Assembly: GCF_002946835.1 (NCBI RefSeq)
Contig: NZ_CP026652.1
Coordinates: 1,116,001 to 1,180,000, forward strand
Reading direction: 5' to 3'
DNA: 64,000 nucleotides
Source: Streptomyces dengpaensis
Lineage (GTDB): Bacteria > Actinomycetota > Actinomycetes > Streptomycetales > Streptomycetaceae
Shown: in pieces, positions 10,201 to 64,000 of the stretch
Position numbering within the stretch: the first letter of the stretch is position 1
Layout: the number at the start of each line of letters is the position of its first letter
Notes under the pieces: generated by a model
The model's database searches: none
The model's input: only the letters and a program-made list of their open reading frames with translations
What the model was told of the DNA's origin: nothing
Position numbers and translations under genes: made by a program

Positions 10201-10296
10201 TTGGCGCTTTATCAGCGGTACGTCGCACGGATGAGGGAGCTCGACGTCGCGCCGTCCAACGAGGTTCGCCGACTTGTCACCCAACTGCGCCGATAA
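7240..10296 (+). CDS. Large STAND-type transcriptional activator with C-terminal SARP/BTAD domains
   Basis: About 1018 residues. Near the N-terminus a P-loop AAA/STAND module has GAGKTT at residues 63-68 and a Walker-B-like LIVVCDN near 145. A MalT-like helical/TPR middle region follows (about 330-770). The C-terminus has an OmpR-type winged helix (about 775-875, starting PRLVLEEFGEPILTVDG) and a BTAD all-helical domain to the end (VAPSNEVRRLVTQLRR). This architecture belongs to ATP-dependent pathway activators. It sits 0.8 kb upstream of the hydroxyquinol genes on the same strand and probably activates them (inference). It contains a rare TTA codon at 8062-8064, so it may need the bldA tRNA. 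A GTG at 7192 would add 16 residues but lacks a ribosome-binding site. Confidence 0.8.
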   Translation: MIESEPGRSSRPKTPGRHHRTIIRRKLAIPEPAKEVVYRQRLSQRIHELLDRHTVVKVFATAGAGKTTAVVQALRDLERPVAWVSLDGTEQAAGRLLVYIEAAVEDIVSSAADVASDALSSSLQIGEAAGLLAESLQGSRLIVVCDNVERIASDESCTAVLSSFARYLPSDANLVLISRVDVQLDLGSTSERDRVGELVETDLAFDVQEASAALRTVGDVDVDPAQAVAATEGWVTGVLFKGWRHARSREMDPDSLHSYVAANIFNSLSLAERTLLLHTSPLGEISVDGARALGQENAAHIMADLRGRYLPVTWSADGSRMTPHPMFRDFLQVALEREDAKTIGEVRRRHTEVLIANGAHEEAVDELLRLGDVEAAGRLAAAALPSLVARMDFALAARWLDALGASVRTPTPEIGSVVLHVAFALEQWGRGVEFIDRHGYDWLPELGAPNSEEARVLACWSLWHSGRIDEARSVGDQLPPGRNRRIADTLIAGATGEEPPPFPEFSTMPSGPLDGLLMRLAFIRGRLDGLDDPGTFDPWRTILGGPWVVAALRATGRLEAAMAMYEPRRGSSQPVWLQGVDAVDLMLDLGRGEEAWSLLKRGRDLIASTGSKVYWNMSLLAEAKLWLRLEGNRQRADRVLAAAAANGALDYALTRETWQLWTGLSMLLQGRDAEAQEHLSACLLSMQRGDRQLDLPTAAVYLAEAQWRLGLEDESDATAELAIVSASTHGTHHLLLTALADMPSVAIRAADTKPSRMSSYHEVLAVLSGRHPVRVNVSAPRLVLEEFGEPILTVDGNVVQPRLTKSVELLSYLLVSPDRRATRDELLGALFDGRNDAAGRSYLRQALFRLRQALPADLGPSQDGDVFSLVGPELAMGSAQRAVDIIAQAGRQHGEVRLQTLLHALSSAERGAFLATVSDTWAAERRVALTEILLSARVDAAKLAYRLNRLREAKGLVDYVLREDPYREQAWQLAIQLEYASGSDDAVLALYQRYVARMRELDVAPSNEVRRLVTQLRR

Positions 10297-10354
10297 GGGC
10301 TCGTGCAGATAGGCGCGATGGGATACCTCGGAAGTAGAACAGGCACAGGGCCTG

Positions 10355-10837
10355 TTGATCATGGAGTTGCGACGCTCTGTGATCACCGGGAGACCTGTGC
10401 CTGCCCTGCCATCCTGGCTGACCGAACCCCTCTGGGACCAATTCGCGGCGCTGCTGCCGGTTGGCCGGGCCCGATGCCCCGAACGCCGGCGGGCAGATGA
10501 TCGTGGTCGCGAGCTGGCCCGCGCCGAGGACCGTATCCGCACCGCCCGCTCAACCGGCCTTACCAACCTGCCTCTCCACGACACCGCGCAGAACCAGGTC
10601 TGGCTGGAGATCGTCCAGATCGCCCTCGACCTGCTGGCCTGGATGCCGATGCTGTCCCTGACCGGCCCCGCCCAGCTGAGGGAACCCAAGCGCCTGAGGC
10701 TGCGGCTGTTCTCCGCCGCCGCCCAACTCGTCACCACCGGCCGGCGCCGCATCCTCCGCCTCGCGAAGCACTGGCCCTGGACAACAGTGATCAGCGATGG
10801 CCTGACGGGCCTCGCAGCGCTTCCGAACCCCGGCTGA
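10355..10837 (+). pseudogene. Chimeric transposase scar: IS5-like N-terminal piece joined to IS1380-like C-terminal piece
   Basis: One open frame of about 160 residues. Its first 35 residues (PSWLTEPLWDQFAALLP) look like the start of an IS5-group transposase. From about residue 50 the sequence changes to the C-terminal part of an IS1380-family transposase (RIRTARSTGLTNLPLHDTAQ, then LEIVQIALDLLAWMPML and RRRILRLAKHWPW). Neither part contains a complete catalytic core, so nothing here can transpose. The two relics together, with trailing IS-end-like sequence to about 11015, fill the roughly 800-base gap between the regulator and the hydroxylase gene. Confidence 0.6.
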
Positions 10838-11042
10838 CCAGCAGCTTCCCGCCCTTACGAGCAGCACCACCCCGACCGGAGCCGTGGAACCCGGCGCCCA
10901 CCCGACGCGACAGCAGGGCCATCAACCTGCCCACAAGCTGAAATCTCCGCTCCCAACAAGCAGAAAAGGTCCGTCAGCGAGCTGACGAACCCTCATGCAA
11001 GATCGACGGTTAAACACCAAGCTAACACCCTGTTCGCGGTTT

Positions 11043-11058
11043 GGTTAACGCCTTAACC
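11043..11058. promoter_or_regulatory. Palindromic operator candidate GGTTAA-N4-TTAACC before the hydroxylase gene
   Basis: Perfect inverted repeat GGTTAACGCCTTAACC about 40 bases upstream of the hydroxylase start. An alternative nested pairing uses GCGGTT (11036-11041) with AACCGC (11055-11060). Two further TTAA/CTAAC half sites precede it at 11009-11026. A GTTAAC core recurs before the flavin reductase at 15191. It is A/T-rich against its surroundings and well placed for regulator binding; the protein that reads it is unknown. Confidence 0.45.
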
Positions 11059-11099
11059 GCGACGATGAGCCGCATCCCTGGAGAACTGGAGGCATGACC

Positions 11100-12716
11100 A
11101 TGAGAACCGGTGCCGAGTACCTGGAATCTCTGCGTGACGGGCGTAACGTCTTCATCGATGGTGAGCGCATCGAGGATGTGACCAAGCATCCTCTGACCCG
11201 TGGATACGCCGCGCAGGCCGCGCGCTTCTACGACATGCATCACGAGCCCGAAAACGAGGCCTCCCTGACCTTCGTCGACGAGGACGGCACGCGACGCCCG
11301 ATCGGCTGGTTGTATCCGCGAAACCAGCACGACCTCGAACGACGGCGCGACTACGCCAACCAGGTGATCCGCAGCTTTGGCGGCGGCGCGTTCGGCCGCC
11401 TCCCCCAGAGCAACAACGGCAACTGGTACGCCCTCGTGGACGACACCGCCCCTTGGGCTGAGCTGTCCAAGGACACGCCCGCGACCGTCGACCTCGCCCG
11501 CAACATCATCACGGACTTCGAGGCCAACCGCGACGCGGACCTCTGGACGGTCCCCCTGCTCAACGACGTGCAGCGCGACCGCTCGGACCCCGAGGCGGCC
11601 GCACGCAACCCGATGCTCCGCGTCAAGGAGCGCAATGACGAAGGCATCGTGGTCGAAGGCTGGAAGGGAGTCTCCACCGCGGTCATATTTGCCGACACGA
11701 TACTGCTCGGCAACATAGTGAAGCCCGGGACAGAACCGGAGCACATCATCTGGGCGAGCGTCCCCGTGAACCACCCGAAGATCACGCACGTGGGACGCCG
11801 TTCCAACGCCACACCCGCCGAGTCCGCCTTCGAGCGGCCTCTGTCAAGCCTCGGCGACGAGCTCGACTCCATGACGTACTTCGATGACGTCCTCATCCCG
11901 TGGGAGCACATCTACCACCTGGGCGACGTCGATCACTCCAGGCTGTATGCGCAGCGTACGTTCGATTTCGAGCACGCCGACACCCTGCACCACATGATCG
12001 TCAACGCGGAGCTCATGACCGGACTGGCGGTCCTCATCGCACAGACAACGGGAACGCTTCAGCACCCGGTCGTGGGATCCGACATCGCCGACCTCGTCCG
12101 CTTCCACGAGACGCTGCGCGCCTTCACCATCGCTTCGGAGACGACCGCGTTCGTGACTCCCAGGGGGCTGTGCAAGCCGAACAACATCTTCTACGACTTC
12201 GGCCGCGCGCACTACCTCGAGAACGTGGGCCGGCTGACGGAGAAGATCGTGGAGATGTGCGGCCGCTCAGCGGTGTTGTCGCCGAGCGACAAGGATTTCG
12301 AGGTTCCCGAGATCGGCACCAGGCTTCTGGAGATGTTCCACGGCACGACGTTGAGCGCGCACGACAAGGTGCGGCTCTTCAAGTTCGTCCAGGACCGGTT
12401 CCTCAGCGACTGGGCCGGACGCTTCAGGTCGTTCGAGAGGTTCCAGGGCACGCCGTTGTTCCTCATCAAGCTGCTGACGATGCAGCGCATCTCGACCGAC
12501 CCCGGCGGCTCCATCACTGAACTGGCCCGCGAGGCAATCGGTCTCGGCACCTCCGACGAGATGACCGCACGCGCCGTCGCCGAGCGGAAGGAGTTGTTCG
12601 CCTCGGTGACTTCCGTCGCCGGCGAGCCTGCGCGCGCTCGGGCGGCCGATGCCAATCAGGGCTTCTCGCTGGACGACAAGGATCAGCCCGACTACATCAA
12701 GACCCAGGACGCATGA
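11100..12716 (+). CDS. FADH2-dependent phenol hydroxylase, HpaB/HpaH (4-hydroxyphenylacetate 3-hydroxylase) family
   Basis: About 538 residues of the two-component flavin monooxygenase family: the oxygenase uses FADH2 supplied by a separate reductase, here probably the gene at 15265. Family features are MRTGAEYLESLRDGRNV at the N-terminus, a flavin/substrate region around FDDVLIPWEHIY and a C-terminal helical bundle including FEVPEIGTRLLEMFHG. Neighbouring maleylacetate reductase and hydroxyquinol dioxygenase genes suggest it hydroxylates a phenol to hydroxyquinol, as the gra resorcinol hydroxylase does; 4-hydroxyphenylacetate or a chloro/nitrophenol cannot be excluded. ATG 11100 fits the GGAGG at 11088 best; ATG 11094 is also in frame. 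Confidence 0.82.
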   Translation: MRTGAEYLESLRDGRNVFIDGERIEDVTKHPLTRGYAAQAARFYDMHHEPENEASLTFVDEDGTRRPIGWLYPRNQHDLERRRDYANQVIRSFGGGAFGRLPQSNNGNWYALVDDTAPWAELSKDTPATVDLARNIITDFEANRDADLWTVPLLNDVQRDRSDPEAAARNPMLRVKERNDEGIVVEGWKGVSTAVIFADTILLGNIVKPGTEPEHIIWASVPVNHPKITHVGRRSNATPAESAFERPLSSLGDELDSMTYFDDVLIPWEHIYHLGDVDHSRLYAQRTFDFEHADTLHHMIVNAELMTGLAVLIAQTTGTLQHPVVGSDIADLVRFHETLRAFTIASETTAFVTPRGLCKPNNIFYDFGRAHYLENVGRLTEKIVEMCGRSAVLSPSDKDFEVPEIGTRLLEMFHGTTLSAHDKVRLFKFVQDRFLSDWAGRFRSFERFQGTPLFLIKLLTMQRISTDPGGSITELAREAIGLGTSDEMTARAVAERKELFASVTSVAGEPARARAADANQGFSLDDKDQPDYIKTQDA

Positions 12717-52739: not shown

Positions 52740-55700
52740 CTACGGAGCGAGCAGGAGATCCCCGTCGTCGTCGCGGAGCGGGGTGGTGGGGTCGTCGTAG
52801 AGGAGGGCGAGGCCGTGCGCCCACTCCGGGCCGTGGCCTGCGGCGGCTCTGTCCCTCAACTCCCATACGGCCTCCGGGAGTTGCTCCAATCGCTGGGCCC
52901 TGTCGAGGAGAGCGTCGATCCCCGCGCGGAACGCTTCGCCCTCGGAACCGAACGCGACCGAGGAGCGGGCGTTGGTCACCCAGAGCGCGACGCTGAACCC
53001 GGCGTCCAGCACACGGCCCATGGACGACTCGCCGAAGCCGTACGCCCCCGGTCCGTACAACACCGGGATGTCGCCGGCCGGCGTGAACCACGTCGTGCCG
53101 TGGGCCCGTACGAAACTCTCCTGCCGCGGGAGGTGCAGGGCCGTGAGCCGTTCGGCGTGCAGCAGGTCCCGCCAACGGCGCACACGCTCATCGATGTCGG
53201 CCTCCGGACGGTCGAGGGCGCGGATCACCACGGGGCGGCGCGCACCGAGCGGGTCCGACGGCGCCTGCGGAAGGCACCAGTGGTGCACGTTCAGGTCGAA
53301 GAGTTCGACGGGCAGGGCGAATTCGACCATGGCGGGGCGGTCCGGAAGGTCCGCCCTGCGCAACGCGTCGGCAAGTGAGGGCCCCAGCCTCGCCGGCAGA
53401 TCCCCCAGCCGGGTGCCGTACGAATCCTCGGCGAACGGCACCGGGTTCGGCAGTCCGGCCGCCACCTCCCAGTCCACGTACCCCTGCTGCCACAACCGGG
53501 ACCGTACGGTCACCACGACGCGCCCGCGCACCACCTGTCCCGACGTCTGCGCGAAACGCCTCCGGAGGTCCTCGACGCGCTCGATGTCGGTGCGGTCTCC
53601 GTCCGTGTACACCCGGTCGGCGCGGCCGCGGGCCTCCTCGGCCTCGACGAAGAGACCGAGGCCTTCGTACGCCCGGGTCAGGCCGCAGAGAGCGAGCCAT
53701 TCCGGGAGGCGGTCGTCGCCCACCCTCTCGTATCGCTGGACGACGCGGAGCAGATCGTCCCTCGCCTCGTCGAACCTGTCCATGGCGCACAGGGCGACGG
53801 CGAGGCTCGTCACCGCCCCGGCCTCCGCCCGCACGTCCCCCAGCCGCAGGAACTGTCGAAGGGCCGCGTCGTAGGCGCCTCGCGCCGCCTCCCACTCGCC
53901 CCGCTCGGCCAGTACTGATCCGGTCTCGTGCCACATGTGGGCGGCCCCCTGCCGGTCGCCCTCCTGCTCGTAGAGGGAACGGGCGAGCTCGTAGGCTTCG
54001 AGAGCGTCAGACGTGCGGTTCAGTCCCAGGTACGCGGCTCCGAGGAGGCCGGAGACGACCGCCAGCCGGTCGCGGCCCACCCCGACGGGATCCGTCAGAG
54101 CGGCGGTGCAGCACCGTGCGCAGTCGTCGAAGCGCCGGTGCTCCAGCAGATAGGGCCCGAGCGTCGTGGACAACTGGACCGCGGCCTCGAACCGGCTCCT
54201 GTTCGCCGCCTCCGCCGTGACCGCGACCAGGTTCGCGCACTCGCCCTCCAGCCAGGCCGCCGCGTCCTCGCGCCGTCCGAACCAGCGGCCGTCCGGCTCC
54301 TCGGACGCCAGGCCGACGCGGCTCACGGCCTCCGCGGCGCAGGCGGCGTAGTACTCCAACAGGCGGGTGAACGCGGCCTCTTCGTCCTCCGCGGCCGTCT
54401 CCTCATCGGCCATCGCTCGTGCGTACTCCCGCACGGGCGGGGGCAGTCGCCAGCGCTCCGCGGAGCCCTCCCGTACGACGAAGTTGCCCTGGACGAGTGC
54501 CGTCAGCCGGTCGACGGCCCGCTCCTCGCTCCCGTCGAGCGCCACCGCGGTCGCGGTGCCGAAGGGCTCGGACAGCGGCGACAGCAGGCACAGCAGGCGG
54601 GCTTGGTCGGGAGGGAGGCCGCGATACCAGTCGTCGAACACGCGCTGGAGGCCGGCCACGGAACCGAAGAACCTGCCTTCGCCGGCCGATTCGCCGGCCG
54701 CGTCCTCCAGGGGTTGGCGGCGCAGCGCCGCGAGGCTTTGAGCGAGCCAGCGCAAGGCGCCCGGCATCCGCCCGCACAGGGACACCAGTTGCCGCGCGGG
54801 CCCGGGACTCGTCTCGACCCGTGTGTCCGTGGGATCCACGCTCATCAGGCACTGGTCGAGGAGTCGCACCGCGGCTTCCTCGCCGAGCGGCTCGACGTCG
54901 AGGACGGTCGCCGCGTGGCGGAAGGCGTACGGGGCCGGCATCCGCGTGCGCGAGGCGATGAGCACCGGATGGCGTCCGCGGGCACGCAGCAGGGGCTCGA
55001 TCTCGTCGAGCGAGGAGACCTGGTCCAGGACCAGCAGCGTCGGCCGCAGTCCGTTCAGAGCGCGTCGGCAGACGCTCTCCGCCTGATCCGGGTCGAAGGC
55101 GAGTGACGAGCGGGGGGCGCCGATGCGGGAGAGCACCTCGACGACGAGCCGGTGGCCGTCGTGCGGCTCGGAGTCGTACTCCCTCGCGGCGGCGTACAGA
55201 ACGCCGCCGGGGAACCAGTCCGAGCCTACGAGCGTGTGTGCGGCCCGCAGCGCGAGCTGCGTCTTGCCGACCTGCGGCATTCCCGTCACCAGGACGACGG
55301 GCCCCTGCTCGGTCGCGTCGGCTGTGATCGCCCGGATGAGCCGCTCCAGGTCCTCGTCGCGCCCGGTGAAGTGCTCGTCCAGGGGCGGCAGCACGGTCTG
55401 GGCCGTGCCGACCCGGCTCTCCGCGCTCTCGTGGCCCGGACTCCTCGGCGCAGCCGAAGTCACCGTCTCCAGGCCCCACTTCGCGGCGGTCCCCGCACCC
55501 GCGCCGCACCCCCGCACCGGAAGCCGCTCGGTGCGGAACGGCATCCCGCCCGCCGTGATCAGGGAGAGCCGGAGCTCCAACTGCCCGTCGGGCGCCGCCT
55601 GTCCGAGGAGGTAGACGACGAACCGCGCCGGGCCGTAGGTCCCGCCGAAGCGGTGCAGGACGAGGGTCGCGTCGCCTACGGTCTCCACCGCTAGCTCGGG

Positions 55701-55865
55701 ACCGCCCTCCAGCATGCAGCCGATCGCGTACTCCTCCTGGTCGTACGGCCACTCCTGAGGGTCGTCGTCGTGTTCCAGGTCGACGGTGACCAGGTACTTC
55801 TGACCGGCCTCCGCCTCGCGGGGCCAGCTCACGACGGGGCGCAGACGTACGACGGGACTCGTCAT
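52740..55865 (-). CDS. NB-ARC (STAND) NTPase with TPR repeats and VMAP-C-like C-terminal domain
   Basis: A 1041-residue protein, likely the sensor/adaptor of a conflict system. Residues 1-115 form a beta-rich domain (LRPVVSWPREAEAGQKYLVT). A STAND ATPase follows (about 160-500), with Walker A GMPQVGKTQ near residue 195 and a Walker B-like LLVLDQVSS. TPR-like helices fill about 580-760 (LGAAYLGLNRTSDALEAYEL). The C-terminal 280 residues look like VMAP-C: VVVTVRSRLWQQGYVDWEV, ARRPVVIRALDRP and the terminal LALLYDDPTTPL. VMAP proteins form ternary systems with MoxR ATPases and vWA proteins, which are encoded upstream. It overlaps the CHAT protease gene by four bases. Confidence 0.7.
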   Translation of the reverse strand: MTSPVVRLRPVVSWPREAEAGQKYLVTVDLEHDDDPQEWPYDQEEYAIGCMLEGGPELAVETVGDATLVLHRFGGTYGPARFVVYLLGQAAPDGQLELRLSLITAGGMPFRTERLPVRGCGAGAGTAAKWGLETVTSAAPRSPGHESAESRVGTAQTVLPPLDEHFTGRDEDLERLIRAITADATEQGPVVLVTGMPQVGKTQLALRAAHTLVGSDWFPGGVLYAAAREYDSEPHDGHRLVVEVLSRIGAPRSSLAFDPDQAESVCRRALNGLRPTLLVLDQVSSLDEIEPLLRARGRHPVLIASRTRMPAPYAFRHAATVLDVEPLGEEAAVRLLDQCLMSVDPTDTRVETSPGPARQLVSLCGRMPGALRWLAQSLAALRRQPLEDAAGESAGEGRFFGSVAGLQRVFDDWYRGLPPDQARLLCLLSPLSEPFGTATAVALDGSEERAVDRLTALVQGNFVVREGSAERWRLPPPVREYARAMADEETAAEDEEAAFTRLLEYYAACAAEAVSRVGLASEEPDGRWFGRREDAAAWLEGECANLVAVTAEAANRSRFEAAVQLSTTLGPYLLEHRRFDDCARCCTAALTDPVGVGRDRLAVVSGLLGAAYLGLNRTSDALEAYELARSLYEQEGDRQGAAHMWHETGSVLAERGEWEAARGAYDAALRQFLRLGDVRAEAGAVTSLAVALCAMDRFDEARDDLLRVVQRYERVGDDRLPEWLALCGLTRAYEGLGLFVEAEEARGRADRVYTDGDRTDIERVEDLRRRFAQTSGQVVRGRVVVTVRSRLWQQGYVDWEVAAGLPNPVPFAEDSYGTRLGDLPARLGPSLADALRRADLPDRPAMVEFALPVELFDLNVHHWCLPQAPSDPLGARRPVVIRALDRPEADIDERVRRWRDLLHAERLTALHLPRQESFVRAHGTTWFTPAGDIPVLYGPGAYGFGESSMGRVLDAGFSVALWVTNARSSVAFGSEGEAFRAGIDALLDRAQRLEQLPEAVWELRDRAAAGHGPEWAHGLALLYDDPTTPLRDDDGDLLLAP

Positions 55866-57217
55866 GGCCCGGCGTCCTCCCCTCGAACCGTGGTCGTGCG
55901 CAACGTGGTGCCCGGATGTCCGAAGTACACGTACATACAGCTGTTGAAGAAGCGTCTGATCTCCTTCTCGGCGACCGCGGGGTTCCCGCCCCGCAGGGCT
56001 CGCTCGGCCCTCTCCAGACAGCCGCGCCGGTACTCCGTCAGGGCCGCGGCGAGGTTGAGCCCGCGGTCGTCCTCCCCTTCATGCTGCGCATCCGCCGCCC
56101 GGTCCACCAGCCACAGGGCGAATTCGTGCGACGGCAAGAGCTCCACGTCGCCCACGGTGGCGATGACCGCGCCGGCGCCCTTGCGCAGAAAGATCTCGGC
56201 GAAACTGCGCGGCTCGACGGACGGTTGCGCGGAGTCGGTGACGGTCCGCCCCGACACACAGGAGTTGATGAGGACGACGGCCCCGGTCCGCTGCAGCGCC
56301 GGCATGGGCTTGTACGCGAGCTGGTTGTACGGGATGTCGCCGAGGGTGAAGGTGTTCAGGTCCGTGGAGTAGCGGCCGTGACAGCGGATCAGCAGCAGGC
56401 CGAACGTCTCGTCCGAGGTGCTGAGCCGGTCGAGCAGGTGCTCCATCTTCTTGGACCGCTCGCCCACCTGGTACGCGGCGAAGGTGTCGGGGGCGAACTC
56501 CAGTTGCTCGTCCTCGCAGACCAGGACGCCGCCGCGCAGCTTGCTCATGGCGGCCGAGTAGGACAGAGCGCGCCGGCCGGCGTGCACCGTGGTCCAGCGG
56601 ATGAGGGGGAGGAGCGCGCCGAGCCAGCCGGCCGGCTTCCGCAGCCGGGCGCAACGGCTCTCCGGGTCCGGGTCGTGGTAGTAGAGCTCCCAGGGGATCT
56701 CGAAGGCCGTCTGGTCCCAGACGACGAGCTGGGGATCGGGCTGCTCCGCGCGGAGCCGGTCGATCCACTGCTCGAGGCGGTGCTTGGTCCGCCACCACTC
56801 GGCGATCTCGTAGTACTTGGCCGCCCAGGGGTTGGCGGCCTTGCTGCTCGCGATGTGGGCGCCGAGGTCCGCGAGCGCCAGTTTCGGGGGACGCTGTTCC
56901 TCCAGCTCGTGGGGGCGGTCGGCTCGCCTGACCTTCTGGCGGTAGTGGAAGAAGAGGGTGAAGCTGGGCTCGCCGCGGGAGTGCCTGGCCATCACGCGGA
57001 GCATGGCCGCGTCGGCGGGCAGGGATCCCGTGATGTCGGACTTCTTGGGGCGCAGGCGCTTCGGTTTCGATGCCGTGTCGACGTCGTCCGGAATCTCGTC
57101 CAGGTCGTCGCCCGGCTCGCGACGGGCCGGCTGCCGGGGCGGCACGCTCTCCGCCGCCGTCATGCTCTCGGCCGCCCGCAGATAACTCCCCATCGTCGGG
57201 TGCCCGTCACCGGTCAC
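55862..57217 (-). CDS. CHAT-domain (caspase-like) cysteine protease
   Basis: A 451-residue protein. The first 70 residues are disordered and acidic; residues 200-430 make a CHAT caspase fold. The catalytic dyad is visible as His280 in LLLIRCHGRYS and Cys320 in VVLINSCVSGRT, with the FLRKGAGAVIATVGDVE strand after it. CHAT proteases are effectors of several bacterial defence systems (for example with gasdermins or CRISPR type III-E). Here it is coupled by four-base overlaps to the STAND/VMAP gene downstream and the vWA gene upstream, so it is probably the executioner of this set. Confidence 0.8.
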   Translation of the reverse strand: MTGDGHPTMGSYLRAAESMTAAESVPPRQPARREPGDDLDEIPDDVDTASKPKRLRPKKSDITGSLPADAAMLRVMARHSRGEPSFTLFFHYRQKVRRADRPHELEEQRPPKLALADLGAHIASSKAANPWAAKYYEIAEWWRTKHRLEQWIDRLRAEQPDPQLVVWDQTAFEIPWELYYHDPDPESRCARLRKPAGWLGALLPLIRWTTVHAGRRALSYSAAMSKLRGGVLVCEDEQLEFAPDTFAAYQVGERSKKMEHLLDRLSTSDETFGLLLIRCHGRYSTDLNTFTLGDIPYNQLAYKPMPALQRTGAVVLINSCVSGRTVTDSAQPSVEPRSFAEIFLRKGAGAVIATVGDVELLPSHEFALWLVDRAADAQHEGEDDRGLNLAAALTEYRRGCLERAERALRGGNPAVAEKEIRRFFNSCMYVYFGHPGTTLRTTTVRGEDAGP

Positions 57218-59151
57218 GCGCCGCCCCCGATCCCCGAGCCCGATCCCGTTCCCGTCCCCGCTCCTCGCTCCGGTACGACCTCCTGACGGGCCCCCAGCGC
57301 GTCGGCGAGCTCGCCGGGCAGCTCGGGGTACTGGTCGGTCTCGGGTGCGACGACATACGTGCGCACCCGTCCCAGCGCCCGGATCGTCCCGGCGATGCGC
57401 AGCGCGTCGTCGAGGCCCTCCCGGCGCACGCGCGACGGGACGCGGCCGCGCAGGCTGGCATCGAGCGGTACGTTGCCGCGGCCGTCGGTGACGACGACGA
57501 GCACGGTCTCGTCCACGACGCCGCGGCCGCGTCGCAGGAAGCGGCGTACTTCATGGGCGGCGAGGTCGACGGCGTGCGCCAGGGGGCTGGCGCGCCCGGG
57601 GGTCCGCTGGAGCGCCTGGACGACCTCGGGGTCGAGCAGCGACGCGGCGCGGAAGCGTTCCGCGCACAGCTCGGACGCGGCACCGGCGTGCCCGAACTCG
57701 ACCACGCTGACGGCGGCGTTCGTCTCGTACGCCCAGCGCAGATGCGGCGCGAGCGCCGGCGCCCAGTCGACGTCGTCGTGACAGGAGTGGTCGAGGACGA
57801 GCACGAGCGCCTGCGCGGGCTCGGCCTTGCGGCGGTACTGGCGGAGGTCCTCGGGGCGGACGATGAGGGTGCCGGGTGCGCTGTCCGTCTCGCGCCGCCG
57901 CACCGTCTGGAACCTCGCCGCCTCGACCAGGCTGGCGACGAGCGCCAGGTCGTGTACGTCCCGGGCGCGCACCGTTCCGAGCGGGCATCCGTGCAGCCGC
58001 CGTGAGGAGGTCCTGCGGTGTCCGGGCGGCCGGAGCGAGGCGAGTTGGGGCAGGGCGTCGGGGGCGTCCTCCGGGTAGCCGGAGGCAGCCGGTCCCGCCG
58101 GTCCGGCCGTCTCGACGGGGTCCATCGGGCGGGCGGGGCCCGAGCCCGCCACCGTGACCGGCGTGGCGACGGGCTCCTGCGGGGGCGCGCTGTCGGAGCG
58201 GTCCGTCCGCGAGAACGCGGGGGCGGGCGCGGGCGGCGGCAGGGCGGGCGGCTCGGAGGGCTCCGGGTCGTCGCGGCGGTGGGGTGCGGCGATGCCCAGC
58301 AGTTCGGCGGCGGCGTCGACATGGCGGGGCTCGACCTCCGCGTCGTGCGCCCGCGCCGCGAGGGCCCGCGCCAGCCGCGCCAGGGTCAGGCTCCGGCGCA
58401 GGCCGGGCGTACGGGTGGTGAGGGCGACCACCTGCCGGGCGGCCTCCGGCGCGAGCACCGGCAGGTTGCGGCCCTCCGTACGGTCGAGCCGCGGAAGCGC
58501 GGCGCCGAGGGCGGCCCGTTCGGTCCACTCGTCCGGGCGCGCGGGGGACCCGCCGGCCCGACCAGCGCCGGCCAGGCGCCACAACTCCCCGTTCAGGCGC
58601 GCCGCGTCCATCCGTACCGGAAACCTGTCGAGCAGGTGCGGCGAGAGGCGGGACGCCTCGGAACGGCGCAGGGCGGCGAGCCAGTGACCGCCGGGACGCC
58701 ACAGCATGCTGTGGCCGTGCCGCTCGGCGGACGCCGCGTCCGCGTCCAGGACCGCGAGAGCCGCGCGGACGACGGCGGGGCCCGCCCGGCACAGGTCGGG
58801 GACCAGCAGGACGGGCGGCGGCGTACCCGGCTCCTCCACCAGGAGGCCCGGCAGCAGGCGGAGGCCGTCCCGCGACAGCAGCGTCCGCAACCACAGATCG
58901 TCCTCACTGAGCCACGAGCCGAGCGCCCGCACCGCGGGCGTCGGCCGCTCGTCGCCCACGCCCGGCTCGCGCACACCCGGTTCACCCGCGCCCGGCTCCG
59001 CCTGGCTCAGATGCGCGGCCAGCCAGTCTCCGAGCGCGGGCAGCAGCTCGGGGTCGAGGTCGAGGAAGACCACACCCGTGGACCGCGGTTGGGCCGCGAC
59101 GCAGGCGAGGACCGTCAGAGCCCGGTCGACGGGGTCGACGAGCGCGGGCAC
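57214..59151 (-). CDS. ChlD/BchD-like vWA protein of the conflict system
   Basis: A 645-residue protein starting at GTG 59151, 3 bases after the MoxR stop. Its N-terminal half (about 1-270) resembles the degenerate AAA part of magnesium-chelatase D subunits, with no Walker A. A Pro/Ala/Ser-rich linker (about 270-390) leads to a C-terminal vWA domain (about 430-620). The metal-site motif DxSxS appears as DHSCH, so its second serine is missing; VVVTDGRGN is present near 570. It probably pairs with the AAA ATPase upstream as a ChlI/ChlD-like motor-adaptor and not as a chelatase, since no porphyrin genes are near. Ends overlap the CHAT gene by four bases. Confidence 0.75.
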   Translation of the reverse strand: MPALVDPVDRALTVLACVAAQPRSTGVVFLDLDPELLPALGDWLAAHLSQAEPGAGEPGVREPGVGDERPTPAVRALGSWLSEDDLWLRTLLSRDGLRLLPGLLVEEPGTPPPVLLVPDLCRAGPAVVRAALAVLDADAASAERHGHSMLWRPGGHWLAALRRSEASRLSPHLLDRFPVRMDAARLNGELWRLAGAGRAGGSPARPDEWTERAALGAALPRLDRTEGRNLPVLAPEAARQVVALTTRTPGLRRSLTLARLARALAARAHDAEVEPRHVDAAAELLGIAAPHRRDDPEPSEPPALPPPAPAPAFSRTDRSDSAPPQEPVATPVTVAGSGPARPMDPVETAGPAGPAASGYPEDAPDALPQLASLRPPGHRRTSSRRLHGCPLGTVRARDVHDLALVASLVEAARFQTVRRRETDSAPGTLIVRPEDLRQYRRKAEPAQALVLVLDHSCHDDVDWAPALAPHLRWAYETNAAVSVVEFGHAGAASELCAERFRAASLLDPEVVQALQRTPGRASPLAHAVDLAAHEVRRFLRRGRGVVDETVLVVVTDGRGNVPLDASLRGRVPSRVRREGLDDALRIAGTIRALGRVRTYVVAPETDQYPELPGELADALGARQEVVPERGAGTGTGSGSGIGGGA

Positions 59152-59154
59152 GGC

Positions 59155-60207
59155 TCAGTCCGTCCGGTCGTCGAGCACGGCGCGTACGCGTTCGTCGTCC
59201 TGATCGGTCCAGGCCGCGAACGTTCCGGTGTCGCCCCGTCCCCGGCGGTGCACGAGCGCCGGTTTCGCGACGCGCCGGACATGGTCGCGGGACACCCGCT
59301 CGGCCCCCTCGATCGCGGCCAGCGCCCGCGCCGCCCTCATCAGCACGAGTTCGCCGCGGTGGCCCGCGAGGGCGAAGTCCTGGGCGAGTCGTGCGCAACG
59401 GGCGACGACGTCGGTGTCGTACCGCACCGTCGCCACACGCTCGCGTGCCGTGTCGAGCGTGGCCTTGCGCTCGCCGTCGCGGCGCAGGGCCTCGGCGATG
59501 AACTCCGAGGCGGGGGCCTCCCGTTCGGCTTCGAAGCGCAGCACGGTCTCCACGATCCGCTGCCGCTGCTCGTCGGTGGCTTCGGACTCGACCGTGGCCA
59601 CCAAGCCGAATCGGTCGAGGAGTTGGGGCCGCAGTCCACCCTCGTCCGGGTTCATGGTGCCCACCAGGGTGAACTCCACGTTCCGCAGGTCCTCCGAGTG
59701 GTGGTCCCGTTCCAGCGGCAGTACGCCGGTGGAGGCGACGTCCAGGATGATGTTGACCAGATAGTCGTCGAGCAGATTGATCTCATCGACGTACAGCATC
59801 CGGGACGCGGAGCGAGCCGCCCGTTCCAGGAGACCCTCGGCTCTCGTCGACTTGCCGTGCATCAGCTCCGGAATCTCCCAGCCGCCCAGCACCCGGTCGT
59901 CGGTCGCGCCGATCGGCAGCGTCACCGGGAACTCGCTGACGGCCATCGTCGTGAAGGCCCGCACGGTCGTCGTCTTGGCGGTGCCGCGCTGTCCGGTGGC
60001 GAGGACGCCGCCGACGCCGGGACTGACGTACGCGATCTCCAGAGCGGTCCGCAGCTCCTCCTGCCCGACGATGAGCGAGTAGGGGAGCATGCGCCGCTCG
60101 CCCTGGTGCCGCTCCCCTTTGGGCTCCTCGGCCTCGGCCTCCTGGGCCTTGGCCTCCTCGGCCTTCGGCTTCTCGCCCGCGTCCGGTGTCCGGTCTTCCG
60201 TCGTCAT
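59155..60207 (-). CDS. MoxR/ChlI-like AAA+ ATPase
   Basis: A 350-residue ATPase from ATG 60207. After a 35-residue Glu/Lys/Ala-rich lead comes the AAA core: Walker A GQRGTAKTTTVRA near residue 75, Walker B MLYVDEINLLDD near 140 and sensor/arginine region GTMNPDEGGLRPQLLDRFG near 185. These are features of the ChlI branch of the MoxR family. It overlaps the membrane gene by four bases and is followed at once by the vWA gene. It probably remodels or licenses the VMAP/CHAT module. Confidence 0.85.
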   Translation of the reverse strand: MTTEDRTPDAGEKPKAEEAKAQEAEAEEPKGERHQGERRMLPYSLIVGQEELRTALEIAYVSPGVGGVLATGQRGTAKTTTVRAFTTMAVSEFPVTLPIGATDDRVLGGWEIPELMHGKSTRAEGLLERAARSASRMLYVDEINLLDDYLVNIILDVASTGVLPLERDHHSEDLRNVEFTLVGTMNPDEGGLRPQLLDRFGLVATVESEATDEQRQRIVETVLRFEAEREAPASEFIAEALRRDGERKATLDTARERVATVRYDTDVVARCARLAQDFALAGHRGELVLMRAARALAAIEGAERVSRDHVRRVAKPALVHRRGRGDTGTFAAWTDQDDERVRAVLDDRTD

Positions 60208-61181
60208 GGCTGCTCCCCCTGGCCGGTCTCCTCGACCGTGTACCGAAACGCGGGCGGCAGCGGTATGCCCTGCCGCCACAGGTCGCACCACCACGCCGCG
60301 ACCATCCGCTCCTCCGCCGGATCGTTCGGCAGCTTCGTCCCGAGCGCCGTGAGGAGGGCGAACCGGTGCAGGTCGAAGGCGGCGTGGAGGGAGTCCCCGT
60401 AGGCGAGTGCCGCCTGCACGGCCCCGCGGTAGGCGATCCAGGACAGGACGAGCGGGATCAGGGCGAGCGCGAGCCATCCTCCGCAGCGGACCAGCACCAC
60501 GGCGGAGACGACGGCGGTGACGGCCATGGTCACCGCCATCCGCACCGCACCGTCCACGGCGTCCCTGCGGTCGTCGACGATGGCGCGCGTCTCGTCGCCG
60601 AGCAGCGGATACAGGCGCGGCCAGGCCACCACCGCGTCGAATCCGAAGGCTCGGCCCACGCCGTCGTCGGCCGCCGCGAGGGCGTTGCCGAGCGCGGTGG
60701 GCCGCACCAGGTGGTCGGGGAGCGGGTAGCGCCGCCGCAGCTCGCTGCCCGCGAAGCCCGCCTCCTGGACGACCGGTTCGGTGAGGGCGGCGGGGTTGCC
60801 CTGGGCCAGGGTCGCCCGGTCCTGCCACTTCTTCTTGCGGGCCCGCTGGCGTTCGCGGGCCCGGCCGGACCCCGGCCAGGCGGGACCGTACCCTTCCAGC
60901 AGGCGGACCATGGCGGTCTGGAAAGGGTTCAGCAGGACCGCGGTCAGCGTGATGGCCAGGACGAGGAAGACCACCTCGCCCACGCCGAGCGCGGCCGCCG
61001 TCTGCCAGGCGCGTCCGAAGCTCAGCCCGCCCTGGGGAGGCTCCACCCAGGCGCGCGCTCCCGCCCAGAACAACAGCAGGACGAAGAGCAGCGCGGCGTA
61101 CGTCGGCAGATAACCGACCATGAAGAACCGGCGTCCGGAGCCGAGCCCCGCGGGCGGCGTGACCGCGTCGCCCAGCTTCAT
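60204..61181 (-). CDS. Membrane protein of the conflict system, function unknown
   Basis: About 325 residues from ATG 61181, which overlaps the Zn-ribbon gene by four bases. Hydrophobic helices lie near residues 22-45 and 65-95 and again at about 205-245; the rest is soluble and charged (RARERQRARKKKWQDRATLA). It has no recognised domain. In the six-gene set it could anchor or sense at the membrane. It is coupled by overlap on both sides and transcribed before the ATPase. Confidence 0.6.
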   Translation of the reverse strand: MKLGDAVTPPAGLGSGRRFFMVGYLPTYAALLFVLLLFWAGARAWVEPPQGGLSFGRAWQTAAALGVGEVVFLVLAITLTAVLLNPFQTAMVRLLEGYGPAWPGSGRARERQRARKKKWQDRATLAQGNPAALTEPVVQEAGFAGSELRRRYPLPDHLVRPTALGNALAAADDGVGRAFGFDAVVAWPRLYPLLGDETRAIVDDRRDAVDGAVRMAVTMAVTAVVSAVVLVRCGGWLALALIPLVLSWIAYRGAVQAALAYGDSLHAAFDLHRFALLTALGTKLPNDPAEERMVAAWWCDLWRQGIPLPPAFRYTVEETGQGEQP

Positions 61182-61606
61182 CGCACCAGCTCCATCGGTC
61201 CCGGGCAGTCGGCGGTGTCGGCGCACGTGGGCAGGAACCGGTCGTCGTAGTACGACAGTACGGCGGTCCGCCCGCAGCCGCCGCAGACGAAGCCGACGGC
61301 ACGGAACCGCGTCGAGCGGCCCAGCAGTCCTGCGCGGTCCGCGGCTCCCACGTCGGCATCGGCACCGCCGGCGACGCCCTGCGCCCGGCGCAGTCGTGCC
61401 GCGTCGCTGATGCCCACGTCCGCACCGTCGAGCCGGAGCACCACGCGCTCGCGCGGATGCCGCCGGAAGTGCTCCGCCAGCCGTTCGGCGACGTCCTCCG
61501 CGCGGTCGTCCGCGGCCAGGTCGAGCGAGGCGTCGTACGTGGTCAGAGTCGGGTCGATGAGTCCCCCGTACCGCCGTCTGGCACGCGCGACGGTGTCATC
61601 CCTCAC
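61178..61606 (-). CDS. Small putative zinc-ribbon protein, first gene of the conflict-system operon
   Basis: A 142-residue protein starting at GTG 61606 behind an AGGGGG box. The N-terminal 100 residues are charged and helical; the C-terminal 40 contain the Cys pairs CGGCGR and PTCADTADCP, which look like a zinc ribbon. No known family. It is the promoter-proximal gene; its stop overlaps the membrane gene by four bases. It might be a nucleic-acid or ubiquitin-like binding sensor, but nothing proves it. Confidence 0.55.
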   Translation of the reverse strand: MRDDTVARARRRYGGLIDPTLTTYDASLDLAADDRAEDVAERLAEHFRRHPRERVVLRLDGADVGISDAARLRRAQGVAGGADADVGAADRAGLLGRSTRFRAVGFVCGGCGRTAVLSYYDDRFLPTCADTADCPGPMELVR

Positions 61607-61759
61607 GGCTGTCCCCCTGCCCCCTGGTGCGGGCTGCCCTGTCCTGCGGATAGCCGTGAATTCTACGGAGCCGAGGGCCCCTTGTATCCCGTTGTGCCCA
61701 AGTCGTCTGCCGCCGTTCGCCGTGCAAGCCGGGGGAAATGACGTAACCCCCGCGCCGCG

Positions 61760-62528
61760 TCAACGCCCCGGTCGCGCCGCGTGCTGCGCGGCGAGGCGCA
61801 CCGGGGCGTTCTGCGCGCCGTAGCCGCGGTATCCGCCGTCGCGCTGGACGAGTTCGAAGAAGACGCGGCCGACGGTCTGCGTGTAGCAGTGGCGGAACTC
61901 GCCGTCGTGGTCGCGGTCGTAGAGGATGCCGAGTTCGCGGTACGCCTCCAGCTCGCCGTCGGCGAACTCATGCCGTGCGGCGAGGTCGTCGTAGTAGTTC
62001 GCGGGCATCGGCAGCAGGAGGCCGCCCGCCGCGCGGAAGCGGCGGGCCGCGGCGACCACGTCGTCCGTGGCGAGCGCGATGTGCTGGGCGCGGGCGCCCT
62101 CGTCGGTGGGGCGGGGCCGACGCCGAGAGCGATGCGTACGCTGCCGTCGGCGTTGGCGACGGCGCGGCTGCGGTGCAGCCCGTACGGGTCGGCGACGTCG
62201 ACGCTCTCCTGTGCGTCCAGCCCGAGCACGCTGCGGTGGAAGAAGCGCGACTTCGTCGAACTGGTGCCAGGGCTGGGTGAGCGCGAGATGGTCGATGCGG
62301 GTCACGGAGCGCGCGGTCGGCTGCTGCTCGACGGACTCGAAGTCGCCTGTCCAGTCGGGGAGTTCGGGGCGTCCGGTGGCGCAGATGAAGAGTTCGGTGC
62401 CGTCGGGGGCGGCCACCGCGTCGAGGGGCGCGTCCTCGAGGGCGCGGGGGACTCGGGCATCAGCCCGGCAGTAGTCGGGCAGAAAGCGGCCATCGCGCGG
62501 AAAGCGGCCATCGGGCGGACGCCGGCAG
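61760..62528 (-). pseudogene. Truncated, frameshifted relic of an HPPD-like / 3-dehydroshikimate dehydratase-type protein
   Basis: Two frames must be combined. One gives the start (DAVAAPDGTELFICATG to TQPWHQFDEVAL) and the end (ARAQHIALATDDVVAAARRF to RVFFELVQRDGGYRGYGAQN); a second gives the middle (VLGLDAQESVDVADPYGLHR, IALGVGPAPPT). The two shifts, near 62250 and 62115, compensate each other. The parts match the C-terminal dioxygenase-like half of fused sugar-isomerase/HPPD proteins. The N-terminal barrel is absent, and the frame stops against the glycosyltransferase gene. The shift at 62115 is in a G run, so a sequencing error is possible, but the missing N-terminus is not explained by that. 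Confidence 0.6.
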
Positions 62529-64000
62529 TCAGCCGGACACCAGCAGCTCGGTCCAGGTCCGCGCCACCCCGTCCAGCGAGAAGGACTCCCGCACCTGCTT
62601 GCGGGCCACCTCCCCGGCAAAGAGCCAGTCCTCCCGCTCCTCCAGCCCGGCGATCGCCTCCGCCATCGCCTCCGGACTCTCGTGGATCCACCGCCGGTCG
62701 TAGATCTCGTCCGCCCCGGGCCACGGCAGCAGCGCGGGTACGGCGCCGGAGGCCATGCCCTCGGCCGGCGCGAGGTGGAAGCTCTCGTCGTCGCTGGTGG
62801 ACAGGACGTGTCCGATCCTGCGCAGCCAGCCCGCCACGTCAGGGCCGAACTCGTCGAAGACGACGGCCCCTTCGAGCAGCGGCGACCGCTGCATGCGGCG
62901 CAGTACGGCGTCGTAGTGCGCGCGCTCCTCGGGCTTGTTCCAGATCCACCAGTACTCCCATGGCGGCTTGGACTTGACCGACAGATGCCAGCGCCGGTCG
63001 CGGGCGCGCAGCGCTTCGAGGACGTCGAGGCCGAGGTCGAGGCGTTTGCGGCTGGGCGCGATGCCGATCATGCCGAGGCGGAAACGGGCACCCGGCGCCT
63101 TGGGCCGGTCGAGCTGATCGGTGTCGACCCAGTTCGGGATGGTCTGGATCTTCACCGCGGGCCAGCCCGTGCGCTCAAGGGTGCTGCGGGCGTAGTAGGG
63201 ACTGACGCACACCACCCGGTCGACCGCGTCGATGTCGACCTGCTCCGGGTACCCGGCGTCCAGTTCGAAGCGGTGCAGCCGGACGACGAGCCGGCTTCCG
63301 GGCCGCTTGTGGCGGCTGTACCAGACGGCCGCAGGACCGCACCACTCGACGACCACCACGTCGGCCCAGTCGGCGAGTTCACGGCTGGCGGCCTGGTCGT
63401 GGCGGGCAAGCGCGGGCCAGGCGTCGATCCGTACCTCGACACCGGGCAGCGCGCGGACGTGGTCGAGCAGCCGCGAGAGGAACTTCAGGTCGTGCCCCGC
63501 GACGGCGATCCGCAGCGGCTGCGGCCGGGCGGCGACGGCGGGGGGCGCGGACGGAAGGGCCCGGTCGAGTTGCGTACGCCAGCGGACCGCCGCGTTCTTC
63601 ATGGTGTACCGCCGGGCGGCGTCCCGGCAGCGGTCGGCGGCCATGCGCCGTGTCTCGGGCTCGCGTACGGCGCGGGCGACGGCTGCGGCGGCGTCCGTGA
63701 GTTCGGCGCCTCCGGGGACGTACAAGGGATAGTCGCTCCCGAGGAGCGCCTCGTGCGCGGGTGTGCGGTTGAGGATGACGGGCAGGCCGAGCGACCCGAA
63801 CTCAAGGACTTTGGTGGAGAGTTCGAGGCTGGCGTCCAGGACCGGGTCCCGCCAGCCGAGGCCCAGATCGCAGTCGGCGGCGATGCGCATGGCTTCCTCG
63901 CGCGGCTGCCCGCCGTGGTGGTGGACGCCGGGGGTGGAGCGCAGCGCCTCGGCCATGGCGACCGGGAAGCCGGGGTGGGCGGGGTCTTTGTGGATCTTGT
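62529..64000 (-). CDS. Glycosyltransferase with two GT-like modules, partial (runs off window)
   Basis: At least 490 codons; the frame is open to the window edge and the true start is outside. The first part (before about residue 130 of the visible protein) resembles the C-terminal half of a GT4-type enzyme (CDLGLGWRDPVLDASLELST, KVLEFGSLGLPVILNRTPAH). A second, complete GT module follows (LRIAVAGHDLKFLSRLLDHV, IPNWVDTDQL, FRLGMIGIAPSRKRLD and the nucleotide-sugar loop FHLAPAEGMASGAVPALLPW). The arrangement suggests a capsular-polysaccharide or teichoic-acid type synthase. It ends 1 base from the pseudogene on the same strand. Confidence 0.72.
   Translation of the reverse strand, partial: KIHKDPAHPGFPVAMAEALRSTPGVHHHGGQPREEAMRIAADCDLGLGWRDPVLDASLELSTKVLEFGSLGLPVILNRTPAHEALLGSDYPLYVPGGAELTDAAAAVARAVREPETRRMAADRCRDAARRYTMKNAAVRWRTQLDRALPSAPPAVAARPQPLRIAVAGHDLKFLSRLLDHVRALPGVEVRIDAWPALARHDQAASRELADWADVVVVEWCGPAAVWYSRHKRPGSRLVVRLHRFELDAGYPEQVDIDAVDRVVCVSPYYARSTLERTGWPAVKIQTIPNWVDTDQLDRPKAPGARFRLGMIGIAPSRKRLDLGLDVLEALRARDRRWHLSVKSKPPWEYWWIWNKPEERAHYDAVLRRMQRSPLLEGAVVFDEFGPDVAGWLRRIGHVLSTSDDESFHLAPAEGMASGAVPALLPWPGADEIYDRRWIHESPEAMAEAIAGLEEREDWLFAGEVARKQVRESFSLDGVARTWTELLVSG

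Follow-up and report, generated by a model that had tools for sequence, protein, structure and literature searches.

A chelatase-type ATPase pair, a predicted CHAT protease and exchangeable payloads in a candidate conflict system of Streptomyces dengpaensis

In this work we describe an operon of Streptomyces dengpaensis encoded by the minus strand, from 61606 down to 52740, of a 64,000-nucleotide (nt) stretch of contig NZ_CP026652.1 (positions 1,116,001 to 1,180,000), which we refer to as the window. We tentatively read this operon as a member of a modular family of conflict systems, in which an ATPase-gated CHAT protease would unleash a tethered payload. Loci are denoted by L numbers and database proteins by P numbers.

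The operon and its four-gene core

The list of open reading frames places six consecutive genes between 61606 and 52740, in which neighbours share 4 nt or sit 3 nt apart, a spacing that upholds the single coupled operon proposed in a preliminary description of this DNA. The genes and the parts of the last protein are as follows (aa, amino acids):

61178..61606, minus strand: Zn-ribbon-like protein, 142 aa, accessory (open reading frame)
60204..61181, minus strand: membrane protein, 325 aa, accessory (start from database copy P0148 and the ATGA overlap)
59155..60207, minus strand: ChlI/BchI-type AAA+ ATPase, 350 aa (NCBIfam; 4-nt overlap with the membrane gene)
57214..59151, minus strand: ChlD/BchD-like vWA protein, 645 aa (NCBIfam; 3-nt gap after the ChlI gene)
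55862..57217, minus strand: predicted CHAT (caspase-like) protease, 451 aa, dyad H280/C320 (4-nt overlap with the vWA gene)
52740..55865, minus strand: payload protein (last gene), 1041 aa, with beta domain, linker, NB-ARC, TPR and VMAP-C (open reading frame and Pfam; 4-nt overlap with the CHAT gene)
55512..55865, minus strand: N-terminal beta domain, spanning residues 1-118 of the payload protein (present in 48 of the 49 loci described below; AlphaFold2)
55371..55511, minus strand: linker and payload junction, about residues 119-165 (low model confidence; identity drop in close pairs)
54726..55370, minus strand: NB-ARC/AAA_16 NTPase, about residues 166-380 (Pfam)
53631..54068, minus strand: TPR repeats, about residues 600-745 (Pfam)
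52788..53462, minus strand: VMAP-C domain, residues 802-1026 (Pfam PF20028, E 6e-34)

The 451-aa protein is classified as a CHAT/caspase-like peptidase through its family and its His/Cys dyad. A Pfam scan of the protein itself returned no CHAT call; among the 27 proteins of its family, itself included, PF12770 is found on 12, and H280 and C320, the residues to which the preliminary description had pointed, are invariant in all 27. In a wider alignment the dyad is present in 50 of 51 proteins, the exception being L050. The last protein matches AAA_16 (E 3e-8), TPR_12 and VMAP-C over the Pfam cut-offs and NB-ARC just below it (E 1.6e-4), and is accordingly classed from its sequence as a STAND NTPase (NB-ARC/AAA_16 with P-loop); the VMAP-C match corroborates, through the profile search then suggested, the NB-ARC-TPR protein with a VMAP-C-like tail of the earlier account.

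The two remaining core proteins resemble chelatase subunits. Among NCBIfam models, those for cobaltochelatase and BchI/ChlI come closest to the AAA protein and BchD/ChlD (TIGR02031, E 8e-26) to the vWA protein, with all scores far under the equivalog cut-offs. Walker A, Walker B, sensor-1 and the R199 region of the ChlI protein are intact, with G72, G75, K78, D141, E142, N186 and R199 each kept in 40 of 40 aligned sequences. The N-terminal half of the vWA protein is AAA-like without a recognisable Walker A, while its C-terminal part holds the vWA domain, whose metal ion-dependent adhesion site (MIDAS) aspartates D112 and D214 (as numbered within the C-terminal piece) are kept in 46 of 46 aligned proteins. 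Shortly past this domain the protein ends in a low-complexity tail with no further Pfam domain and no C-terminal effector fusion. A scan of genome contigs with the vWA protein as query gave no confirmed relative. Together, the conserved ChlI motifs, MIDAS aspartates and CHAT dyad suggest that the engine is functional.

Running the CHAT alignment as a pattern-based scan over genome contigs (one genome per species, 84,980 species) identified 49 loci, two of which (L020 and L021) are opposite ends of one chromosome. With the window proteins as queries, tblastn detected ChlI in 40 of these loci, the vWA protein in 46 and the last gene, by its N-terminal part, in 48, and the order ChlI, vWA, CHAT, last gene was complete in 39. 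Since the loci were fetched via CHAT alone, this arrangement is not a matter of chance. The ten incomplete loci comprise six that are cut by contig ends (L003, L012, L013, L033, L039, L044) and four rows lacking one or two genes despite sequence being there (L020/L021, L030, L046). CHAT and last gene lie within 11 nt of each other in 43 of 48 loci, so the two proteins are probably co-produced. Four phyla are represented, namely Actinomycetota and Cyanobacteriota, with single loci from Chloroflexota (Herpetosiphon) and Pseudomonadota (Parabeggiatoa). We take nearly all host genera to be filamentous or multicellular, Prochloron and Crocosphaera being exceptions. At both ends of the linear Streptomyces chromosome represented by L020 and L021, CHAT and a trypsin-EAD2 payload (10001-12357) occur with no ChlI or vWA gene within 10 kb upstream.

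Homologues of the Zn-ribbon gene were found in seven of the 49 loci and of the membrane gene in eight, and all six genes co-occur in seven (L002, L004, L005, L007-L010), all of them Actinomycetota. Co-occurrence thus holds for the four-gene core and, as a full set, for one branch; the system is therefore defined by four genes rather than six, with the Zn-ribbon and membrane genes as accessories of that actinobacterial branch. The Zn-ribbon-like protein carries C-x2-C and C-x5-C close to its C-terminus, cysteines that are incompletely kept among homologues (L002 is one Cys short). The membrane protein has hydrophobic segments at residues 19-37, 65-83 and 228-246; its reading frame is open from 61226 (340 aa), and the database copy P0148 (325 aa) begins at 61181, a start that yields the 4-nt ATGA overlap with the Zn-ribbon gene. 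It has 448 database relatives compared with 27 from the CHAT protein search, and may also serve other systems.

A reverse search with the beta domain was positive in 16 of the 246 genomes searched from the window's genus, its own included (15 candidates scored per genome), in one of 296 genomes of a phylum-wide sample, again its own (13 candidates scored), and in two records of a plasmid collection, rarity figures that come from loose first-look searches. Phage records searched with the window's domain gave no match. In the 17 resulting loci (15 from other genomes and two from the plasmid collection) CHAT lies directly upstream in 17, vWA is present in 16 and ChlI in 15; L087 is the record of L020/L021, L086 runs to a contig end, and further overlap with the genomes of the CHAT search is possible. 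Within the samples used, beta domain and CHAT therefore appear to travel together in both search directions. The CHAT query against 21 near relatives was positive in one, the window's own genome.

The same genome holds a second copy of the system at 2.87 Mb (L055; contig C1, 2862000-2880000), with a TIR-NB-ARC-TPR payload. Upstream of it lie a payload copy without beta domain (hereafter headless) and a gene encoding an aKG-HExxH domain, which is FxsB-related and below cut-off. A 1291-aa protein following the second payload gene (L055:1571-5443) matches nothing in Pfam or NCBIfam under the limits applied. This copy is about 7 kb from a VMAP ternary system (L109). In the window itself, a dioxygenase-like gene upstream of the operon (61663-62620, minus strand) is by eye spread over more than one reading frame, which seems to reflect sequence error or decay.

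A constant beta domain and a changing payload

Residues 1-118 of the last protein can be aligned from Streptomyces to Nostoc (38 sequences), and AlphaFold2 models nine beta strands with a block predicted local distance difference test (pLDDT) score of 85-97 for residues 1-120. This score falls to 48-66 over residues 121-150, where the linker is predicted to be disordered. The linker is also unconserved, and identity in close pairs drops about here; low confidence and lack of conservation directly after the beta domain would make it a suitable protease site. No Pfam model was over cut-off inside the beta domain in any of the last-gene proteins scanned, one sub-threshold match overlaps it (L038, residues 95-140, E 0.008), and a PDB sequence search matched no chain. 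The 118-residue domain, having neither a Pfam family nor a PDB sequence match, appears to be undescribed.

What follows the beta domain differs widely. Pfam payload scans covered the window, 38 of the 49 loci, L055 and nine of the 17 reverse-search loci; L008, L012, L013, L021, L024, L026, L030, L033, L035 and L047 lay outside them, and the contig of L044 is without a last gene. Besides the NB-ARC-TPR-VMAP-C payload of the window, these scans identified STAND alone, STAND-TPR, TIR-NB-ARC-TPR, NACHT-TIR, caspase, trypsin-like with or without EAD2, CBM48-alpha-amylase, VMAP-C-NYN, CHAT-FHA, CHAT with DUF7363, CHAT-STAND-TPR, WD40, NACHT-HEAT, NACHT, LRR-Roc-COR, TPR and FGE/C-lectin. The payload of L046 matched no Pfam family and that of L028 a weak family only. 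A protein-database search with residues 1-118 gave 130 matches, and the 120 listed added exoribonuclease, lipase/acyltransferase and nucleosidase modules. In the nearest relatives of the window protein, P0029 and P0030, the tether is separated from NB-ARC by a nucleosidase-type module (PF01048, about 230 residues), which is missing from the window protein. In L038 (11139-14469) the payload gene is apparently broken, and TIR-NB-ARC-TPR pieces go on in other downstream frames. No diversity-generating retroelement could be demonstrated next to the C-lectin payload of L045, as the 108-nt repeat there lies outside the C-lectin reading frames and differs at positions other than A as well.

Exchange of payloads is best seen in close pairs. 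The Pseudanabaena loci L028 and L037 are 87% identical in ChlI, 94% in vWA and 81% in the beta domain, while the short protein of L028 and the LRR-Roc-COR payload of L037 have no blastp match at E 1; at the DNA level, identity of 86% ends 112 codons into the last gene and resumes at 91% 285 nt past it. L017/L027, L027/L034 and L015/L019 likewise differ in payload at core identities of 75-78%. In Nostoc (L024/L026), 94.4% DNA identity runs through the core and 141 codons of the last gene, protein identity of the payload is then only about 40%, and 94.3% DNA identity is back 19 codons before the gene end. By this comparison the Nostoc payload has been either exchanged or hyper-diverged between flanks of about 94% identity. 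Counting against exchange, the payload is kept in other close pairs, for example L022/L035 at 85% identity.

In a ChlI+vWA tree, sister rows with a Shimodaira-Hasegawa-like approximate likelihood ratio test (SH-aLRT) value of 100 bear unlike payloads (L015/L019, L028/L037, and L025 versus L016/L018). Parsimony required 19 payload changes for 19 states over 38 labelled of 40 rows, one above the minimum, with the labels of L008, L024, L026 and L035 assigned by similarity to scanned relatives. Payload turnover thus appears to fall mostly between clades, and it is the close pairs, not the parsimony count, that argue for swapping. From these comparisons we infer a fixed engine, composed of a chelatase-type ATPase (ChlI), a ChlD-like vWA co-chaperone, CHAT and an all-beta adaptor, to which an exchangeable payload is joined.

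Ten loci or copies (L011, L022, L026, L032, L035, L036, L038, L045, L049, L055) have headless payload homologues close to the core. Two such genes in L026 (14318-19192, minus strand), both of STAND type and akin to the payload upstream, are possible donors for payload change. Headless genes also bear on a reading in which a free, nearby-encoded copy of the payload protein is recruited or licensed by the tethered one, like the published effector-associated domain (EAD) principle. The ten cases speak for this homotypic seeding; most loci searched, the window stretch included, have no such copy within the stretch examined, and we consider it improbable.

Relation to VMAP ternary and other known systems

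The preliminary description assigned the operon to the vWA-MoxR-VMAP ternary systems, with the CHAT gene as a separate addition. As far as the accessible part of their description goes (Kaur et al. 2020, PMC7159879), these systems are defined by a strict order VMAP-MoxR-vWA, their MoxR carries two N-terminal motifs (WxhapG and PsWRxa), and variable effectors are fused C-terminally to vWA. The genome of the window allows a direct comparison, since it encodes three further VMAP-C proteins (L108, L109 and, near 8.46 Mb, L110), and L108 (6276-12714) and L109 (4048-10856) are genuine VMAP systems that keep the published gene order. Both consist of a trypsin and VMAP-C protein, an AAA ATPase nearest to, and far below, the MadB model, and a large protein in the place of vWA, which is SAV_2336-type in L108 and a relative of it in L109, and on which Pfam found no domain in either locus.

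The VMAP-C domain of the window operon is genuine, and its MoxR-clade ATPase comes with a vWA protein, as the ternary assignment would require. However, its order is ChlI, vWA, CHAT, VMAP-C protein, and the MoxR motifs, searched with our own regular expressions, occur in none of 42 ChlI proteins of its family as against both MoxR proteins of L108 and L109. Neither the ChlI nor the vWA family model matched L108, L109 or L110 at E 1 in hmmsearch (the neighbours of L110 were compared through these models alone), and blastp of the window's MoxR/vWA-type proteins against L108 and L109 stayed at chance level. The sole common part is VMAP-C (36% identity and E 1e-21 with L109; that of L108 is beyond blastp reach), and VMAP-C is found on just five of the 120 listed beta-domain carriers, the window's own included. 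VMAP-C is thus best regarded, by this count, as one of many exchangeable modules on the beta-domain protein. Ternary membership is very unlikely on this evidence, whereas the operon, the CHAT dyad, the VMAP-C tail and the conflict-system character proposed with it are, in our judgement, right. In what is accessible of PMC7159879, the two kinds of system are alike in a MoxR-clade ATPase with vWA co-chaperone, VMAP-C, swapped C-terminal modules and mostly filamentous hosts; they differ in that the window unit has a chelatase-type ATPase/vWA pair without MoxR motifs, a separate CHAT protease and the order ChlI-vWA-CHAT-payload, and in that its modules swap on a separate beta-domain protein rather than on the vWA protein. 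The iSTAND, FtsH and beta-propeller ternary systems (PMC7159879) and iSTAND2 and TERNS3 (PMC8195603) likewise combine a MoxR-vWA core with a distinct third component; to the extent that the accessible text describes them, they are set apart from the window, where this component is CHAT plus a beta-domain payload carrier.

Ancestry links the motor to magnesium chelatase, in which an active AAA subunit (I) is similarly paired with one that is AAA-like and carries vWA (D), and a housekeeping or developmental role could be envisaged on this basis, as a chelatase-like maturation or peptide-signalling system instead of immunity. The FxSxx-COOH system (FxsA/FxsB/FxsT) offers a second link: the NCBIfam model FxSxx_TPR matches the NB-ARC-TPR of both Streptomyces payloads scanned (L011 and L055), and L011 sits beside FxsB radical-SAM peptide-maturase genes, which lie upstream together with a headless payload copy. 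That model, however, leaves the beta domain, CHAT and ChlI/ChlD uncovered, and all six window proteins fall short of such models. Unlike chelatase subunits, the window pair is far below the equivalog cut-offs and stands beside CHAT in the loci found; no H/CobN subunit is among the six operon products, the rest of the genome not having been searched for one. The patchy occurrence within the genus (the 16 of 246 genomes given above) and a payload turnover atypical of housekeeping genes also argue against such a role, to which we give an outside chance.

Craspase, a type III-E gRAMP with TPR-CHAT, keeps its CHAT protease off until triggered, and this protease is thought to cut a partner. As far as accessible accounts of Craspase reach, the likeness lies in a CHAT protease held off until a trigger; the six window products are without a CRISPR part, and the gate here is a chelatase-type AAA/vWA pair. 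PADLOC-DB gave weak matches only, all to the last protein (best E 0.002). In the open-licence literature we found no description of a ChlI-ChlD-CHAT-beta-domain unit; subscription papers and supplementary tables were outside this coverage, so absence from print is not established.

Gate and release or reverse polarity

In the mechanism that we tentatively favour, the ChlI/ChlD ring would, via the vWA domain, hold and remodel a complex of CHAT and the adaptor, setting an ATP-dependent threshold. An invader or damage signal exceeding this threshold would render CHAT active, which would then cut or release the payload from its tether. In the window, the freed NB-ARC-TPR-VMAP-C protein would form oligomers and arrest or kill the infected hypha, and in other species TIR, caspase, trypsin, nuclease or carbohydrate-active modules would be freed. 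The Zn-ribbon and membrane proteins probably place the complex of the actinobacterial branch at the membrane. Among the payloads are types of enzyme that commonly serve as effectors (TIR, caspase, trypsin, CHAT, NYN, exoribonuclease), and by eye the protease sites of the L017, L020, L025 and L034 payloads look active, which suits zymogen activation.

Several observations weigh against this mechanism. Payload enzyme sites appear by eye to be lost in L009 (His), L010, L015 and L048, and some payloads are pure binding domains (WD40, TPR, C-lectin) better suited to a sensor. In the vWA metal motif both aspartates are kept, and the second serine of the usual DxSxS is not conserved. A motif search of 128 dereplicated linkers revealed no common cleavage motif beyond module starts; the best motif (620 versus 511-528 in three shuffles) was rejected as a cleavage site, being by eye the module starts common to related payloads. 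Finally, in pairs of loci that are not independent of one another, CHAT showed no extra divergence with differing payload at core identities of 60-70% and 70-80% (42.3 vs 41.5% and 59.7 vs 55.7%), while it was more diverged with differing payload at 50-60% (32.4 vs 40.2%) and in the single different-payload pair at 80-100% (62.7 vs 87.3%). The outcome over the four identity bins is thus mixed, and neither this comparison nor the linker search separates the favoured mechanism from its closest rival.

In that rival the polarity is reversed, with the swapped module acting as sensor or bait and CHAT as the executioner, released by the ChlI/ChlD motor on engagement of the module. Other immune receptors sense through their variable part, WD40, LRR, TPR, HEAT and FGE/C-lectin folds are found among the payloads, apparently inactivated enzymes are fit for decoys, and the payload diverges fast (L023/L026 share 97% identity in CHAT and 40% in payload). 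Retroelement-diversified C-lectin proteins have, in the accessible part of PMC10907252, been proposed as antigen sensors. On the other hand, many payloads already combine effector, switch and repeats (TIR-NB-ARC-TPR), and some are enzymes without recognisable sensor repeats (caspase, trypsin, amylase). Reverse polarity is, though doubtful when taken on its own, nearly as likely as gate and release.

Under either polarity the family may represent a plug-in immune chassis, a proposal we hold about as cautiously as the gate-and-release mechanism, in which a ChlI/ChlD-gated CHAT and a beta-domain socket gain modules by recombination in the linker from nearby free homologues, so that neighbouring filamentous strains would share an engine and differ in warheads or sensors. 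The family would extend the conflict systems of the MoxR/vWA type by one with a motor subfamily, protease and adaptor domain of its own, and would suggest that chelatase subunits have been recruited to conflict. The beta domain provides a handle, in that its presence probably marks a protein as a payload, which would allow new effectors or sensors to be found, and close pairs with a common engine and different payloads make the question of effector versus sensor directly testable.

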